From: Candidatus Mediterraneibacter pullistercoris
Lineage (GTDB): Bacteria; Bacillota; Clostridia; Lachnospirales; Lachnospiraceae
NCBI GenBank assembly: GCA_019116885.1
Contig: DXAU01000017.1
Span: 109,572 to 173,571 of the forward strand
Direction of reading: 5' to 3'
Length of the DNA: 64,000 nucleotides
Part shown: positions 4,130 through 40,440 of the stretch, in pieces
How positions within the stretch are numbered: position 1 is the first letter of the stretch
How the letters are laid out: every line of letters begins with the position of its first letter
Translations under genes and position numbers: made by a program
The notes under the pieces: model-generated
What the model was told of the DNA's origin: nothing
The model's database searches: none
The model's input: only the letters and a program-made list of their open reading frames with translations

Positions 4130-4933
4130 ATGGCACTTTATAATAACAGGATCGTAGTAAAAGTAGGAACTTCAACACTCACAAATGATGCGGGAAAGAG
4201 CGATCTTCGCGCCACGGACCGCCTCGTCTGCACGCTGGCCGATATCCATAATATGGGATATGAGGTCATCCTTGTCTCCTCGGGCGCTATTGCCGTGGGG
4301 AGAAACAAGCTGAACATGCAGGGCAGACCGGACAGTAACACTATGCGCATGAAGCAGGCCGCAGCCGCAGTCGGCCAGTGCAGCCTGATGTATCTGTACG
4401 ACAAGTTCTTCGGGGATTATGACAAGACTGTTGCCCAGATCCTCCTCAATGCAGAAGATATCGAGCAGGAGGAAAAAAAGGAAAATCTGACAAATACATT
4501 TGATGCGCTTCTTGAAATGGGCGTGATCCCAATTGTAAATGAAAATGACTCTGTAAGCTACACCGAGATCGAGTCCGAGGACAGGCTGTTCGGAGACAAC
4601 GACATGCTCTCCTCAGTCGTGGCTGTCCTGTGCCGGGCGAAACGCCTTGTCATCTTGTCCGATATTGACGGCTTCTACGACAGTGATCCCCGTCTGCACC
4701 CCAATGCAGAACTCATCGAGCAGATTGATACGATCGATGAAAGCGTCTATTCCCTCGCAGGAGGCGCCGGTTCAAGAAGAGGCACAGGGGGCATGCGCAC
4801 AAAACTGCAGGCTGCGCAGCTTGCCACTTCGCAGGGTATCGATACGATCGTAACGAACGGGAAGCGCCCGGAGGCCCTTTACGACATTGTCAGGGGCGGA
4901 AAAGCCGGCACACTGTTTACCGGGAAGATATAG
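4130..4933 (+). CDS. proB: Glutamate 5-kinase, short form without PUA domain
   Basis: RIVVKVGTSTLTN, VSSGAIAVG, NENDSVS, LSDIDGFYDSDPR, GTGGMRTKLQAA motifs; 267 aa. Confidence 0.95.
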   Translation: MALYNNRIVVKVGTSTLTNDAGKSDLRATDRLVCTLADIHNMGYEVILVSSGAIAVGRNKLNMQGRPDSNTMRMKQAAAAVGQCSLMYLYDKFFGDYDKTVAQILLNAEDIEQEEKKENLTNTFDALLEMGVIPIVNENDSVSYTEIESEDRLFGDNDMLSSVVAVLCRAKRLVILSDIDGFYDSDPRLHPNAELIEQIDTIDESVYSLAGGAGSRRGTGGMRTKLQAAQLATSQGIDTIVTNGKRPEALYDIVRGGKAGTLFTGKI

Positions 4934-26654: not shown

Positions 26655-27545
26655 ATGAAAATGGCAATTTTTAAAGGTGCAGGCGTAGCGCTTGTTACTC
26701 CGATGAAAGGAAATCTTGAAATCGATTACGATAAACTTGATGAACTCATCGAGGAGCAGATCGCCGGCGGTACAGACTCGATCATTATCTGCGGTACCAC
26801 AGGCGAGTCCGCAACTATGACTGAAGCTGAGCACAGCGAAGCGATCCGTTTCACAGTCGAGAGAGTGAATCACAGAATCCCCGTTATAGCAGGAACGGGG
26901 TCCAACAGTACCCGGACAGCAGTCCAGCTCTCCAAAGAGGCAGAGAACGACGGGGCTGACGGACTTCTTCTCGTGACGCCATATTACAACAAGGCAACAC
27001 AGAATGGACTGATCGCACATTACACGCAGATCTGTAATGAAGTCCAGATCCCGGCGATTCTCTACAATGTGCCAAGCCGCACCGGATGTTCTATCCAGCC
27101 GCAGACTCTTGCCACGCTTGTGAAAAATGTTGATAACATTGTCGGCGTGAAAGAGGCTTCCGGAAATATCGGAACAGTTGCAGAGATCATGCATCTGTGT
27201 GATGGTGATATCGATCTGTACTCCGGAAATGACGATCAGGTCGTTCCGCTTCTCTCCCTTGGCGGGATCGGCGTAATCTCCGTACTGTCAAACGTAGCCC
27301 CGGCTTATGTACACGACATGGTCTATAAATACCTGTCTGGCGACACAGCCGGCAGCGCTAAGATGCAGCTTGACGCAATTCCGCTCATCAGCGCCCTTTT
27401 CTGCGAGGTCAACCCAATTCCGGTAAAGGCGGCAATGAACATGATGGGCAAAAATGTAGGTCCTTTAAGAGCGCCGCTGACAGAGATGGAAGATGCTCAC
27501 AAAGAAACGCTGAGAAAGGCAATGACTGAATTTGGTCTTCTGTAA
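26655..27545 (+). CDS. dapA: 4-hydroxy-tetrahydrodipicolinate synthase
   Basis: GTTGESATMTEAEH, YYNKATQNGL, LYNVPSRTGCSIQP, GVKEASGN. Confidence 0.97.
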   Translation: MKMAIFKGAGVALVTPMKGNLEIDYDKLDELIEEQIAGGTDSIIICGTTGESATMTEAEHSEAIRFTVERVNHRIPVIAGTGSNSTRTAVQLSKEAENDGADGLLLVTPYYNKATQNGLIAHYTQICNEVQIPAILYNVPSRTGCSIQPQTLATLVKNVDNIVGVKEASGNIGTVAEIMHLCDGDIDLYSGNDDQVVPLLSLGGIGVISVLSNVAPAYVHDMVYKYLSGDTAGSAKMQLDAIPLISALFCEVNPIPVKAAMNMMGKNVGPLRAPLTEMEDAHKETLRKAMTEFGLL

Positions 27546-35145: not shown

Positions 35146-36129
35146 TCAGACAATCGCCCAGGGATCTTCTTTCCCTGCTGCATGATAGATACAGCTCAAG
35201 ATAGAATTTTTTACCATATCACTCACCGCCTGGTCTGTGTAAAACGCCATGTGCGGAGTGACGATCACATTCGGAAATCCTCTTAGGATATACAGATCCC
35301 GTTTGCTCAGCACGTCAGATTTCCGGTCGTGATAATACATACCGAACTCATCTTCGATAACATCCAGCCCGGCCGCGCTGATCTTTCCCGACTCGACCCC
35401 TTCGATGAGCGCTTTTGTATCGATCAGCCCGCCCCTTGCCGTATTGATGATGACAACGCCATCTTTCATCTTTGAGAGAGCGCTGCTGTCTATCATATGG
35501 AAATTATCATCAAGAAGCGGCATGTGCAGAGTGATAAGATCACATTCCCGGTAGATCGTCTCGAGGTCGGCATACATGGCATACTGCTTTACAGAATCAT
35601 CTTCATATCTGTCATACGCATAGATCCTGCAGCCGAATCCCGACAGATTCCGGATGACCGCGCGCCCTATCCGTCCTGTCCCCAGCACTCCCACTGTAAA
35701 GTTCGGCAGCTCTCTCCCCTGCAGGCCCGGCAGAGAGAAATCATTTAACTCCTCCCTCTGCATGATCCTTTTCATTCTGCGTATCGACATGAGAATGAGC
35801 ATAATCGTATAATCAGCCACACACTCCGGTGAATAAGATACATTGCTCACATGCATACCCATACGCTCTGCCGCCGCAATGTCCACATGGTCATATCCGA
35901 TCGTCCGGGTAGAGATCATCTTTACACCGAGCTTATGAAACTGTTCCATAAGCCTGGCATCAACCTTCGTCGTAATGATGCTCAGGTACTCGCACCCTTC
36001 TGCAAGATGCACATTCTCCATTGTCGGTTCCTCGGAAGTAAAGCCAATCTCCACGCCGTATTCCCTGGAAAACTTCTGAAAATACTCTGCTTCATCAAAC
36101 TCTCTGTAACTGTATACAAAAATCTTCAT
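35146..36129 (-). CDS. D-isomer-specific 2-hydroxyacid dehydrogenase (D-lactate dehydrogenase-like)
   Basis: GVLGTGRIGRAVIRNLSGFG, NTARGGLIDTKAL, ISTRTIGYDHVD. Confidence 0.9.
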   Translation of the reverse strand: MKIFVYSYREFDEAEYFQKFSREYGVEIGFTSEEPTMENVHLAEGCEYLSIITTKVDARLMEQFHKLGVKMISTRTIGYDHVDIAAAERMGMHVSNVSYSPECVADYTIMLILMSIRRMKRIMQREELNDFSLPGLQGRELPNFTVGVLGTGRIGRAVIRNLSGFGCRIYAYDRYEDDSVKQYAMYADLETIYRECDLITLHMPLLDDNFHMIDSSALSKMKDGVVIINTARGGLIDTKALIEGVESGKISAAGLDVIEDEFGMYYHDRKSDVLSKRDLYILRGFPNVIVTPHMAFYTDQAVSDMVKNSILSCIYHAAGKEDPWAIV

Positions 36130-36144
36130 CTTCTCTTTCCCCTC

Positions 36145-36948
36145 TCATATCAGCCCATAATGTTCCATGGCATGAGCGATTCCGTCTTCTTCCACAGCTC
36201 TTGTCACAAACTCTGTATGCGCATCAAGCACAGGATCATGCTCTCCCATTGCCACAGCATGCACCGCAAACTCAAACATAGGCAGGTCATTGCTGCTGTC
36301 TCCGAACACATAGGCACATTCATCCGGCAGATTCAGCCTGTTCAGCATAAATCTGCACGCTGTCGCCTTGGAATACCCTTTCTGCACTACTTCATAGGCG
36401 CCTCCGCCCCGATGCATAGCCTCCATATCCTGACTGATAAATTCAAGAAAGGTGTTCAGGTCGCTCTTTTCATCCGCGTAGATGAACAGCTTGTCATAGA
36501 TAAATCCGTCTCTCTCAAGCGGACATTCTATTCCCATGCCTTTCTCCCGGAAATATCTCCTTGAAGATTCCAGTTTATCAAATCTTGAGATACGGCTCGG
36601 GAAGTAGACGTCCTCCGGCCCTTCTGCGATCCCGCCAAGATTGCACTCAAACATCTTATCGAGGATCTCTCTGCCCCGTTCTCCCGGTAGTGATCTCGCA
36701 AAAAGTTCCTCCTCATGCCAGAACAGATGCGTTCCGCATCCGCACAGAAAACCGTCAAAAGGCATCTTTCTGATCTCTGCTGGTACGCTGCAGATCGTCC
36801 GCCCTGTATTGATAAAAAGCTGATGGCCGGCCTTTTTTGCCATATGGAGCGCTTTTACGGCGCTCTCTGGGATTTTTCCGGTCTTCTCACTTAGCAATGT
36901 GCCGTCAATATCAAAAAATAATACTGCTCTTTCCATAGTTCTCTCCAT
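36145..36948 (-). CDS. HAD superfamily hydrolase (Cof-type)
   Basis: LFFDIDGTLLSE; VFGDSSNDLPMFE. Confidence 0.92.
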   Translation of the reverse strand: MERTMERAVLFFDIDGTLLSEKTGKIPESAVKALHMAKKAGHQLFINTGRTICSVPAEIRKMPFDGFLCGCGTHLFWHEEELFARSLPGERGREILDKMFECNLGGIAEGPEDVYFPSRISRFDKLESSRRYFREKGMGIECPLERDGFIYDKLFIYADEKSDLNTFLEFISQDMEAMHRGGGAYEVVQKGYSKATACRFMLNRLNLPDECAYVFGDSSNDLPMFEFAVHAVAMGEHDPVLDAHTEFVTRAVEEDGIAHAMEHYGLI

Positions 36949-37027
36949 TTCATCATCTGAATTTCACGTAACATTCTACTATCCTTTCCCGGAAATGTCC
37001 ACCATATCCAAAGACTGTCAGGCACAG

Positions 37028-37082
37028 AAAAAGGGCCGCGCCTCAGACACCCGCACTGCAGGTTCTCTGATCGCACAGCCCT
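37028..37082 (-). terminator. Candidate terminator ending the BMC operon
   Basis: RC reads AGGGCTGTGCG...GCGCGGCCCTTTTT just downstream of second BMC gene. Confidence 0.45.
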
Positions 37083-37115
37083 GTATATCTTTCCGCTGTA
37101 TTGCTTTCCTTTGTA

Positions 37116-37400
37116 TTATTTTTTCCTGCTCCGGAACATCTCGACAATATCGATCATCTCCTGCGACGGGTTCGATATCACAGCTGTCTCGATCACCCTG
37201 CACGGCGGATCTTCTTTCACGCTGTCCACAGCAGCTTTCACCGCGGCAACATCTCCGCCGACAAAGATCAGTGCATGTCCGCCGCACTTTGTGTCCTGCG
37301 TGACATATTCCACATCGGCAGTCTTGAGCATGCGGTCCGTCACCAGAATACCGTTCGCCTCTCCCACGACTTCTACAAGTCCATAAGCTCCATATATCAT
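37116..37400 (-). CDS. BMC-domain shell protein (BMC-H)
   Basis: MIYGAYGLVEVVGEANGILVTDRMLKTADVEYVTQDTKCGGHALIFVGGDVAAVKAAVDSVKEDPPCRVIETAVISNPSQE. Confidence 0.92.
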   Translation of the reverse strand: MIYGAYGLVEVVGEANGILVTDRMLKTADVEYVTQDTKCGGHALIFVGGDVAAVKAAVDSVKEDPPCRVIETAVISNPSQEMIDIVEMFRSRKK

Positions 37401-37431
37401 ATCCGTACCTGTCCTTTCCTCTCGTCTGTGA

Positions 37432-37731
37432 TCATTTCCCGATCGTCATGGCAATCGCTGTCTCCGTATCCTCTGCCGGAGATGCAATCACAGTGTGGGA
37501 TACGATTTTGGTCCGTCCGGCTGCCGCGTCGAGTGCAGCTTCCATAGCCGCTTTCACATTTGACACCGTACCGCGCATCTTAACGCAGGCTCCGGCGCCC
37601 AGCCTGTTCCTCTCCACTGCCTGAATCTTTACATCCGCCGCCTTTGCAGCCGCATCGAGAGCGACAAAACAGATACATTCGCTCTCCAGCTCAAATACTC
37701 CTATCGCCATTCCGGCATACTGTTCCGCCAT
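37432..37731 (-). CDS. BMC-domain shell protein (BMC-H)
   Basis: MAIGVFELESECICFVALDAAAKAADVKIQAVERNRLGAGACVKMRGTVSNVKAAMEAALDAAA...SHTVIASPAEDTE. Confidence 0.9.
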   Translation of the reverse strand: MAEQYAGMAIGVFELESECICFVALDAAAKAADVKIQAVERNRLGAGACVKMRGTVSNVKAAMEAALDAAAGRTKIVSHTVIASPAEDTETAIAMTIGK

Positions 37732-37759
37732 AATTTCCTCCTGTCTGTCTCATTCATCC

Positions 37760-38836
37760 TCAGCGGTTCAGAACTGCGCACACATGCCCTCTGCCGCTGA
37801 GCACCGTCCAGTTAGCTTCGTTGATCTCTTCAAGATGGAACCGGTGGGTGATCAGACGATACAGAGGAATCTCCGCTGTCTGTGCCAGCTTGAGCATTTT
37901 CTCTCCCTGGCCATACGCCTCTTTCGTGAGATGTGTCCTGACATGTTTTGTCAGATCAGCAATGTTCCCTCCTGCTCTGACGAACCTCCTGACTATGCTG
38001 TTTCCACCCGGCAGTTCAACACACTGCAGCGCAATATCGGCAAGTTCGCCGCCAAAACATGATTTTGCCTTTTCGACCATGCCCTGCATACCGCTTTTAC
38101 AGGTAAAGACCGCCTTATGTCTGGCTCCGAGTCTCAGGGCCAGCGCAAGACGTTCTTCATCCTCATCTATTGCTATGATATCAGAAAATCCTGCACATTT
38201 CAATGCCGCGATCATAAGAAGACCCGTCGTCTGGCATCCTGCGACCGCGATCTTTGCATATTTCTCAGGTTTATACAGTTTACAGATACGCTCTACAGAA
38301 GCATAAGCTTCACATGCCCTGCGGTACAGCATCCTGGAATCCAGATCAAGATCGTTCATCTGGAGGATCTTCATGTCCTCTCTGAGGATCACATAGGATG
38401 AATACCATCCGCAGGACTGCGGCCCTTTTTTCCGGTCTCCATATCCCGGTTTCCTGATATTCACAGATCCCAGAGCTGTCACAAGATCCCCTTCTTTTAT
38501 GATCCTGCCGTGAACGTCTTTTACTTCTGTGGTTCCGGTCTTCACAACGATTCCCGTTCCCTCTTCTCCGATGGCGGGGCACTGATATCCCGGAATGTCT
38601 TTCAGGAACTCCTGTGCATCCGATTCTGATACGATACAGCCTTCCATACGCACGAGGATCTCTCTTTCCCCCGGTTCTGGCACATCGGCTTCCTTTATCT
38701 CATACGTTTCTGTCTCTGTAAGGAAAGCGGCTTTCCCTTTTTCCGGAACAGCGCTTCTTACTGGCGGATATCCGGCACCGTTTATCTTTACTTCTTTTAT
38801 GACCTGTTCAACAATCTCGTCAATCTTTACATCCAT
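37760..38836 (-). CDS. MDR-family dehydrogenase with putative BMC encapsulation peptide; zinc ligands not conserved
   Basis: N-term MDVKIDEIVEQVIKEVKING amphipathic helix + linker; IAVAGCQTTGLLMIAALKCAGFSDIIAIDEDEERLALALRLGA Rossmann. Confidence 0.85.
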   Translation of the reverse strand: MDVKIDEIVEQVIKEVKINGAGYPPVRSAVPEKGKAAFLTETETYEIKEADVPEPGEREILVRMEGCIVSESDAQEFLKDIPGYQCPAIGEEGTGIVVKTGTTEVKDVHGRIIKEGDLVTALGSVNIRKPGYGDRKKGPQSCGWYSSYVILREDMKILQMNDLDLDSRMLYRRACEAYASVERICKLYKPEKYAKIAVAGCQTTGLLMIAALKCAGFSDIIAIDEDEERLALALRLGARHKAVFTCKSGMQGMVEKAKSCFGGELADIALQCVELPGGNSIVRRFVRAGGNIADLTKHVRTHLTKEAYGQGEKMLKLAQTAEIPLYRLITHRFHLEEINEANWTVLSGRGHVCAVLNR

Positions 38837-38840
38837 TGTC

Positions 38841-39335
38841 CTATCTCTTTTGCCATGGGACCTGTCTGTCAGACACCCCGTATAACAGCTTATCGATCCT
38901 GATCTTCACAACAACCTTTCTGTAAGCGGTCGGCTGCCCGTCATGACAGCATGGCTTATGAGCGTCCGTAGGATAAACAATGCAGAACATCCCCGGCTTT
39001 ATCGACAGTTTCTGCCCCTCTCCAGTAAGCCACTGGATATCGGTCTTGCTGTCGTAGGGGGATTTTTCTTCCAGTTCAGACGCATCCGCATACTCCCACA
39101 TCTCTTCCCCTTCCAGGAGTATCTGCATGTCAAAATATTCTCTATGTATCTCAAAATCCGCCTCTCCAAACGGTCTGGTCTTTCCCTCCTGGACAAAGGC
39201 AAATCCTTTTCCCACAGGGTATCTTCCCTCAGGGAGCCTTTCCTTTTTTACTTTTTCGACAAAGCGTACTGCATCCCATATCTCAGGAATACACCTCTGG
39301 TAATATCGGAAATTTTCAAGTTTATCTAAGATCAT
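38841..39335 (-). CDS. YhcH/YjgK/YiaL (NanQ) family protein
   Basis: DFEIHREYFDMQILLEGEEMWEY...LTGEGQKLSIKPGMFCIVYPTDAHKPCC cupin-like family motifs. Confidence 0.88.
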   Translation of the reverse strand: MILDKLENFRYYQRCIPEIWDAVRFVEKVKKERLPEGRYPVGKGFAFVQEGKTRPFGEADFEIHREYFDMQILLEGEEMWEYADASELEEKSPYDSKTDIQWLTGEGQKLSIKPGMFCIVYPTDAHKPCCHDGQPTAYRKVVVKIRIDKLLYGVSDRQVPWQKR

Positions 39336-39351
39336 ATCTTACGCCATCCTC

Positions 39352-40251
39352 TCACCCGATCAGTCCAAGTTCGCGCATCTTGTTGTACACTTTCGCTTTC
39401 ATTTCTGCGTCGAGCGGCATGCCCGGGAGTCTCTCGTGTCCGTCCTGTTCAAGGACGCGGTAATACATCGCCTGTTTGCATGCAAGAAACAGAGGAGTGC
39501 TGTATGTGTAGATATCCATCGCTTCTACCATCTTTTTAAACCACTCCGCCGCTTTATTGAAGTCTCCGCACTTTGCAGCCTGATATGTATTGACTGTATA
39601 CTCTGGCGCAAAATTCGCCGTAGCGTTGATGAATCCGTCCACTCCGCACGCAAGGAGCCCCATCGCCTGATTCTCGTAGGCGCAGAATACGGAAAACTCC
39701 GGGTTGATTTCCTTGACTTTCTGCATTGAAAGCAGATGATTGAAATCTGAGATTGTGTCTTTGATTCCCACGATGTTCGGATTTGCTTTTACCAGGTCGC
39801 AGACTACATCCGCATTAAAGCAGTATCCGGTCAGATCAGGGAAATTATAGATGATGATAGGCAGTCTCGTATGAGATGCCACGTATTTAAAATACGCCTC
39901 TACCATATCTGTACTGTAAACACTGAAATACGGGTTGATCAGCAGCACCCCGTCCACTCCGATGCGCTCCACAAAGGCCAGCAGTTCCATCGTATTTTCC
40001 AGACAGGTATCTCCGACGCCGACGATCACATTGACACGTCCTGCCACATACTGCGTCATCTCCCGGATAAAATCTTTTTTCTCCTGCACGGTCATTGTGC
40101 TGAACTCACCTGAAGTTCCAAGGTATGCGAGTCCGTCCACACCTTTTTCGATCAGGAAATCCGCCTGTCTTTTGCTGGCTTCGATATCAACTTTATAATT
40201 CTCATCAAAAATAGTGATTACCGGTGGATTTATACCGCACAGTCTTTTCAT
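39352..40251 (-). CDS. DHDPS/NAL-superfamily aldolase, YjhH/YagE-like (2-keto-3-deoxy sugar acid aldolase)
   Basis: YLGTSGEFSTMTVQEK, VLLINPYFSVYS, IIIYNFPDLTGYCF, IVGIKDTISDFNHL; RBS AAGGAGG. Confidence 0.85.
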   Translation of the reverse strand: MKRLCGINPPVITIFDENYKVDIEASKRQADFLIEKGVDGLAYLGTSGEFSTMTVQEKKDFIREMTQYVAGRVNVIVGVGDTCLENTMELLAFVERIGVDGVLLINPYFSVYSTDMVEAYFKYVASHTRLPIIIYNFPDLTGYCFNADVVCDLVKANPNIVGIKDTISDFNHLLSMQKVKEINPEFSVFCAYENQAMGLLACGVDGFINATANFAPEYTVNTYQAAKCGDFNKAAEWFKKMVEAMDIYTYSTPLFLACKQAMYYRVLEQDGHERLPGMPLDAEMKAKVYNKMRELGLIG

Positions 40252-40266
40252 ATCTGTATTTCCTCC

Positions 40267-40347
40267 TTAATGGTAACCGAGCTGCTCTGACAGCGTACGG
40301 CCTGTCGTGAGCAGTCCGCCGATCACCTTTTCTTTTTTGGGAAGCAA
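40267..40347 (-). pseudogene. Possible C-terminal remnant or leader ORF upstream of aldolase
   Basis: (L)LPKKEKVIGGLLTTGRTLSEQLGYH*, stop codon overlaps aldolase RBS. Confidence 0.35.
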
Positions 40348-40440
40348 TCACTTTTCATTTTTATGCAATTTCACGATAACATTTTTTACTTCTTACTTTC
40401 ATATACTTACAAGAAACCATATTTTATTCAGAGGATATCT

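Follow-up and report, generated by a model that had tools for sequence, protein, structure and literature searches.

What do two bacterial microcompartment (BMC) shell genes do at the end of a short row of sugar-acid genes, and does that row specify an organelle of its own? The question is raised by a locus in a 64,000-nucleotide stretch of Candidatus Mediterraneibacter pullistercoris DNA (contig DXAU01000017.1, positions 109,572 to 173,571; the window), which an initial annotation had read as a five-gene BMC operon, complete in itself, that handles a 2-keto-3-deoxy sugar acid. All five open reading frames (ORFs) were confirmed on the minus strand, co-directional and separated by intergenic gaps of 16, 4, 28 and 31 bp, and Pfam supported the families first given to them:

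39352..40251, minus strand: DHDPS/NAL-superfamily 2-keto-3-deoxy sugar-acid aldolase, proposed 2-keto-3-deoxy-L-rhamnonate (L-KDR) aldolase (PF00701, 217 bits)
38841..39335, minus strand: YhcH/NanQ-family protein that may act on the keto-deoxy acid as an anomerase/mutarotase (PF04074/DUF386, 123 bits; N-acetylneuraminate anomerase model NF040884, 97 bits, cut-off 160)
37760..38836, minus strand: protein of the medium-chain dehydrogenase/reductase (MDR) fold with an N-terminal helix like an encapsulation peptide (EP), zinc ligands lost, proposed cargo adaptor
38783..38836, minus strand: EP-like N-terminus of this satellite MDR, MDVKIDEIVEQVIKEVKI
37432..37731, minus strand: BMC-H1, satellite single-domain shell protein (PF00936, 60 bits)
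37116..37400, minus strand: BMC-H2, satellite single-domain shell protein with a pore-loop Cys (TKCGGHA; PF00936, 65 bits)

We favour, with a probability of roughly 0.6, the reading that this locus is a satellite or satellite-like extension of a PVM-like, lactaldehyde-type metabolosome, with a rhamnonate module and an adaptor MDR. Judging by gene order, in a few species the shell pair directly follows an operon rhmD-gntP-iclR-aldolase-yhcH-MDR. The picture suggests, short of proof, that an existing organelle was given a second food source to draw on.

The shell pair and the main microcompartment

A satellite BMC locus has been defined by contiguous shell genes that fall short of a full shell set, with PF00936 or PF03319 alone (Axen 2014, PMC4207490). 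The locus studied here has two BMC-H genes 31 bp apart with none between them and no PF03319 gene, and a full BMC locus lies elsewhere in the same genome (contigs C57/C66). The core aldehyde dehydrogenase (AldDH) and the BMC-P that a stand-alone metabolosome would need are absent from the five genes. By its gene content the locus is therefore a satellite BMC under that definition, and satellite-like if its enzymes are counted, in line with the satellite class that the initial annotation had also suggested.

The host assembly (2.45 Mb, 74 contigs, 92% complete) gave 13 matches to PF00936 and exactly one to PF03319 (BMC-P). Contigs C57 and C66 both end inside the same MDR gene and overlap in sequence, giving one main locus with BMC-H, BMC-T and BMC-P; the genome-wide search for a separate BMC-P and BMC-T, proposed at the outset, thus found both there. 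That annotation had also noted the lack of a CoA-acylating AldDH, a phosphotransacylase and a signature lyase, which holds for the window and fails for the genome, where all are in the main locus. This locus is uninterrupted in the congener G444 (L081), with shell genes for an EutS-like BMC-H, four BMC-H, BMC-P and BMC-T, enzyme genes for a class II aldolase, AldDH, zinc-dependent MDR, PduL, an RnfC-like protein and an iron-containing alcohol dehydrogenase (Fe-ADH), and genes for EutP, HbpS/DUF336 and a regulator that is DeoR-like by its sequence (Pfam matches PF00596, PF00171, PF06130, PF00107 and PF10662). The class II aldolase ends in an EP-like C-terminal tail, and the AldDH of the window's own genome matched NF011927 with 659 bits. 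PVM-like loci carry a class II aldolase and a DeoR regulator, GRM5 loci additionally a PduS homologue, DUF336 and a zinc-binding dehydrogenase, and PVM BMCs are inferred to work through lactaldehyde (Axen 2014, PMC4207490). No ORF of the size of a glycyl radical enzyme was found in 4-17 kb of L081, the stretch to which that search was confined, and the main locus is for this reason called PVM-like; its genes suggest a lactaldehyde-type metabolosome.

Orthologues of BMC-H1 (at least 49% identity) were sought in 397 genomes of the family and 58 of the genus. In the family sample they were present in 20 genomes, all within the 76 that have a main-locus-type MDR (20 with both, 56 with the main type only, none with the shell pair only, 321 with neither; Fisher p=4.6e-16, shared ancestry ignored). 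The genus sample had BMC-H1 in 26 and the main-type MDR in 32 genomes (22 with both, 10 main only, 4 shell pair only, 22 neither; Fisher p=5.7e-5, shared ancestry again ignored). Where flanks of main-type MDR hits were fetched, all those checked adjoined BMC-H or AldDH genes. BMC-H2 adjoins BMC-H1 in every BMC-H1 locus examined, and most genomes carrying the pair lack the aldolase. From these distributions BMC-H1 and BMC-H2 form a satellite shell pair that is widespread and in many Lachnospiraceae goes along with the main BMC locus. BMC-H1 groups with the 117-aa BMC-H of the main locus (tree support 0.94). The pore-loop Cys of BMC-H2, which raised the thought of an Fe-S cluster in the pore, is kept in the genus and in Faecalicatena and is Asn in a Blautia metagenome-assembled genome (MAG); the main BMC-T loop also bears a Cys (TVCPGKY; L015).

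The window's own genome (G000) has further satellite shell genes. Two EutS-like BMC-H genes stand with EutP (L016, C71, 5300-6105), adjoined by a gene whose 1234-aa product repeats multicopper-oxidase-like modules with HXH-type motifs (L016 1041-4745), and there is a lone EutL-like BMC-T of ~249 aa (L018, C66, 7482-8231).

The sugar-acid operon and its partial deletion in the window

The best match of the aldolase among solved structures was Escherichia coli YagE (3n2x, E=3.5e-56, a moderate 194 bits). Its YNFP and VGIKDT motifs, with the catalytic Tyr and the Schiff-base Lys, align with those of YagE, as in class I DHDPS/NAL enzymes, and the early call of a keto-deoxy-sugar-acid aldolase linked to BMC shell genes stands. 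It is 93% identical to the aldolases of congeners, 81-84% to those of Faecalicatena-like genomes and 82% to that of the Blautia MAG. The aldolase (E <= 1e-90) and the satellite MDR occurred in the same four of the 397 family genomes, all with a main locus. Satellite MDR orthologues were found within the genus in the own genome, G425, G444 and G405, and beyond it in G104, G148 (Faecalicatena faecalis), G214 (VE202-21), F. orotica and the Blautia MAG; each of the eight relatives has a single BMC-P beside numerous BMC-domain matches. In the order sample no aldolase was found beyond the genus, and the plasmid search gave no match.

In relatives (L060-L064 and L066-L070; gene calls there are mechanical ORFs) the operon runs enolase-superfamily gene, GntP permease, IclR, aldolase, YhcH, MDR. 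Both dehydratases tested, from the congener G444 and from G104, scored 662-663 bits against the L-rhamnonate dehydratase model NF011968 (cut-off 393), and the one that was searched matches solved RhmD structures. The nonphosphorylated L-rhamnose pathway yields pyruvate and L-lactaldehyde (PMC3870299). RhmD and GntP upstream in relatives point to L-rhamnonate as the substrate, and hence to L-lactaldehyde and pyruvate as products. The pathway would thus likely run from L-rhamnonate through 2-keto-3-deoxy-L-rhamnonate to pyruvate and L-lactaldehyde; with this dehydratase in relatives, the glycolaldehyde or glyceraldehyde proposed earlier is the less likely product. The Blautia MAG has the order aldolase, MDR, BMC-H1, BMC-H2, without rhmD and yhcH. 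Faecalicatena-like loci (L060, L061, L062, L068-L070) have an extra, divergently oriented PduL downstream of the satellite MDR, adjoining the aldolase-MDR operon; it scored >250 bits with PRK15070 in the two scanned and lacks an N-terminal EP.

The first half of this operon is missing from the window, where two features mark the loss:

40270..40347, minus strand: last 26 codons of an IclR-family regulator gene, left as a remnant (tblastn)
40346..40354, no strand: junction of a deletion of ~3.5 kb (rhmD, gntP and ~90% of iclR gone)

The remnant is 69% identical to residues 225-250 of the 250-aa IclR of a congener (E=3.6e-6), and nothing is left of rhmD or gntP. The flanks of the junction align to ~4253-4489 and ~8024-8148 of L064, so that about 3.5 kb is missing; a promoter-like site before rhmD in L064 falls within the deleted stretch. 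No rhmD-type gene was found elsewhere in the own assembly at its 92% completeness, and no gene in the window or genome qualified as an L-rhamnonate dehydratase by NF011968. The junction may be an assembly error, though the site lies inside a 173 kb contig.

The deletion makes it an even bet that the locus is a decaying relic in this species, its remaining genes useless except for the shell pair, which would be compatible with the satellite-extension reading for the relatives. The dehydratase, permease, regulator and probably the promoter are gone, and the congener G405 shows the same operon in advanced decay: in L065 (1067-2239) a frameshifted GntP fragment runs into the C-terminal half of the MDR, and rhmD, aldolase and yhcH are lost beside an intact shell pair. 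Against decay in the window, the remaining ORFs are all intact and its branch has no excess of dN over the congeners. For all seven genes in 35146-40251 dN/dS was <= 0.1, a rough estimate against two congeners with dS near saturation. Low dN/dS without a branch excess means that the deletion is recent or that the remaining genes are still used, and low dN/dS together with a gene order seen again in relatives makes these genes more than a chance assembly.

The satellite MDR and competing readings

The Pfam match of the satellite MDR was weak (ADH_zinc_N 33.3 bits, cut-off 31.8; ADH_N 23.4 bits, cut-off 23.5), a first hint of an unusual protein. In the tree the seven satellite MDRs fall together in a single clade (support 0.99), apart from the main-locus zinc dehydrogenases. 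The catalytic zinc ligands of the window copy are changed from C to S, H to E and C to A; across the seven, the Cys, His and Cys sites read S/S/S/A/A/S/T, E/E/E/Q/Q/Q/F and A/V/A/A/A/A/F, while 14 main-locus MDRs keep Cys, His and Cys save for one Ala at the third position. None of the seven qualifies as a zinc-dependent MDR alcohol dehydrogenase. The middle Gly of GxGxxG reads Q/R/R/G/R/G/T, and the NAD-site Asp is kept in six of seven. The MDR fold is retained in an AlphaFold2 model (best match in the Protein Data Bank 1vj0). An EP is a terminal amphipathic helix of ~18 residues joined via a flexible linker (PMC12339742). The N-terminal extension noted in the initial annotation is EP-like, modelled as a helix (residues 5-21) with a low-confidence stretch (15-27, pLDDT <50); it is conserved in all seven copies and resembles the N-termini of main-locus cargo. 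Its hydrophobic moment in the window copy gave p=0.10, in a weak test that was not significant for several main-locus cargo proteins either. The simplest reading of alignment and model is that the targeting function was retained without zinc catalysis. As all three ligands are lost in seven of seven copies and the main paralogues keep them, the satellite MDR is more probably a cargo adaptor than the aldehyde-processing dehydrogenase of the initial annotation. In VE202-21 (L062/L070) the satellite MDR is split by a frameshift near residue 110, either real or a sequencing error.

Several points weigh against a satellite extension with an adaptor, beside the roughness of the dN/dS estimate. The main-locus substrate is deduced from a class II aldolase that passes no NCBIfam equivalog cut-off. 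Neither the aldolase nor YhcH has a recognisable EP, and Faecalicatena, where the aldolase-MDR operon lies far from the shell pair, shows that the two need not be linked. These last observations fit a cytosolic aldolase pathway that merely shares an operon with the shell pair, nothing being encapsulated except perhaps the MDR. We give this about one chance in four; against it, every genome found with an intact aldolase also has the EP-bearing MDR and a main BMC, and the order aldolase-MDR-BMC-H1-BMC-H2 recurs in the Blautia MAG. The annotation had named shell genes always unlinked from the aldolase and dehydrogenase in relatives as fatal to its proposal; this came largely but not fully true, with separation in most relatives and linkage in three congeners (one decayed) and the Blautia MAG.

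Slightly less probable still is an active satellite MDR, a zinc-independent oxidoreductase inside the metabolosome that would, for example, reduce L-lactaldehyde to 1,2-propanediol. Zinc-independent MDR enzymes exist, and the middle Rossmann Gly is kept in two of the seven copies, so that cofactor binding is possible in some; both facts count against the adaptor. The fold, the NAD-site Asp, the EP-like N-terminus and purifying selection agree with activity as well. Set against this, the zinc ligands are not only lost throughout but substituted differently between lineages, the middle Gly is replaced in five of seven copies, all congeners included, and the main locus already has a zinc-dependent MDR and an Fe-ADH.

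A substrate other than L-rhamnonate, such as sialic acid or another aldonic acid, is improbable. The YhcH/NanQ protein and membership of the NAL superfamily would suit it, and RhmD enzymes can take some other acids, e.g. L-mannonate or L-lyxonate, so the identity of the aldehyde is one we infer. Yet nanA models reached 107 bits against a cut-off of 382, and the RhmD equivalog lies far over its cut-off in relatives with a GntP-type sugar-acid permease upstream. The self-contained five-gene operon, for all its suggestive gene content and spacing, can hardly be maintained for a locus without BMC-P or BMC-T in a genome with a complete main locus, the shell pair being mostly unlinked from the aldolase in relatives.

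Relation to known systems and proposed role

Like other satellite and satellite-like loci (Axen 2014, PMC4207490; Sutter 2021, PMC8217296), this one has only PF00936 shell genes, contiguous, and a full BMC elsewhere; it differs in its enzymes, a DHDPS-family aldolase, YhcH and a zinc-less MDR. Satellites with enzymes ("EUT modules") were described as functional extensions of a main BMC (Sutter 2021, PMC8217296). An aldolase-YhcH-MDR satellite was not found in the main texts searched; the supplementary catalogues of Sutter 2021, outside that search, may list it. The main locus resembles the fucose-rhamnose metabolosomes (PVM, PVM-like, GRM5) in its class II aldolase, AldDH, PduL, DUF336/HbpS, zinc-dependent MDR, RnfC-like protein and DeoR-like regulator, and in lactaldehyde as the inferred intermediate; unlike GRM5, it has no glycyl radical enzyme in G444, and the satellite would reach lactaldehyde by a nonphosphorylated sugar-acid branch. 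With the nonphosphorylated L-rhamnose pathway the satellite operon shares, in relatives, the succession of L-rhamnonate dehydratase and 2-keto-3-deoxy acid aldolase, but the aldolase is of the DHDPS superfamily like YagE, the genes are linked to a BMC, and GntP import replaces rhamnose dehydrogenase and lactonase in the operon. YagE (3n2x, 2v8z) is the best structural relative by sequence, and the moderate match does not imply a shared substrate. CcmN of beta-carboxysomes carries an EP and ties cargo to the shell (PMC12339742); the satellite MDR is of another fold, and its adaptor role is hypothetical.

In the proposed scheme, GntP would import L-rhamnonate or a related sugar acid, RhmD would make 2-keto-3-deoxy-L-rhamnonate, YhcH would open or epimerise its ring form, and the aldolase would split it into pyruvate and L-lactaldehyde. 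Having ceased to be a zinc dehydrogenase, the MDR would serve like CcmN as an EP-bearing adaptor and recruit the EP-less aldolase to the shell; lactaldehyde would then pass to the AldDH, PduL and alcohol dehydrogenases of the metabolosome for processing, and BMC-H1 and BMC-H2 would adjust shell permeability. The window species would retain only the second half of the module. The specific proposal that a zinc-less, EP-tagged paralogue recruits an EP-less KDR aldolase to a PVM-like shell, feeding L-rhamnonate-derived L-lactaldehyde into the same organelle, is tentative and, taken whole, rather unlikely.

Next to the shell pair lie two further genes:

35146..36948, minus strand: HAD (Cof) phosphatase and D-lactate-dehydrogenase-like (LDH) genes, neighbours of the shell pair

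Operon-less congeners (L100, L104, L105, L106) have a deacetylase gene followed by BMC-H1, BMC-H2, HAD and LDH; in Faecalicatena-like genomes the pair is flanked by a MATE transporter and that same deacetylase, and in most of them HAD and LDH come next. A promoter-like TGGACA-17-TAGAAT precedes HAD/LDH in the window (37001-36973) and at the same place in L064, and the two genes are probably a separate transcription unit. That they belong to the operon and recycle NADH is unlikely, since both stay with the shell pair where the operon is missing and follow a conserved promoter-like site of their own. An extended -10 promoter-like site lies inside the satellite MDR gene (window 38203-38175, minus strand; L064 10137-10165) and resembles one upstream of BMC-H1 in the operon-less L105/L106 (35 nt, 86%); whether this match is an MDR scar or coincidence is ambiguous, as it overlaps promoter-like hexamers in both. 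A second DHDPS-superfamily gene in the window (26691-27542, 25% identity to the aldolase) is probably an ordinary dapA.

A literature search for rhamnonate and microcompartments returned no relevant paper. If the proposal is true, this would be the first microcompartment, as far as found, with a sugar-acid pathway linked to it, and it would show how an organelle is adapted to a new substrate: a paralogue of a cargo enzyme would have lost catalysis, kept its targeting peptide and become an adaptor, with accessory shell proteins brought under the same promoter. Gut species that can be cultured (Faecalicatena faecalis, F. orotica) would allow a test.

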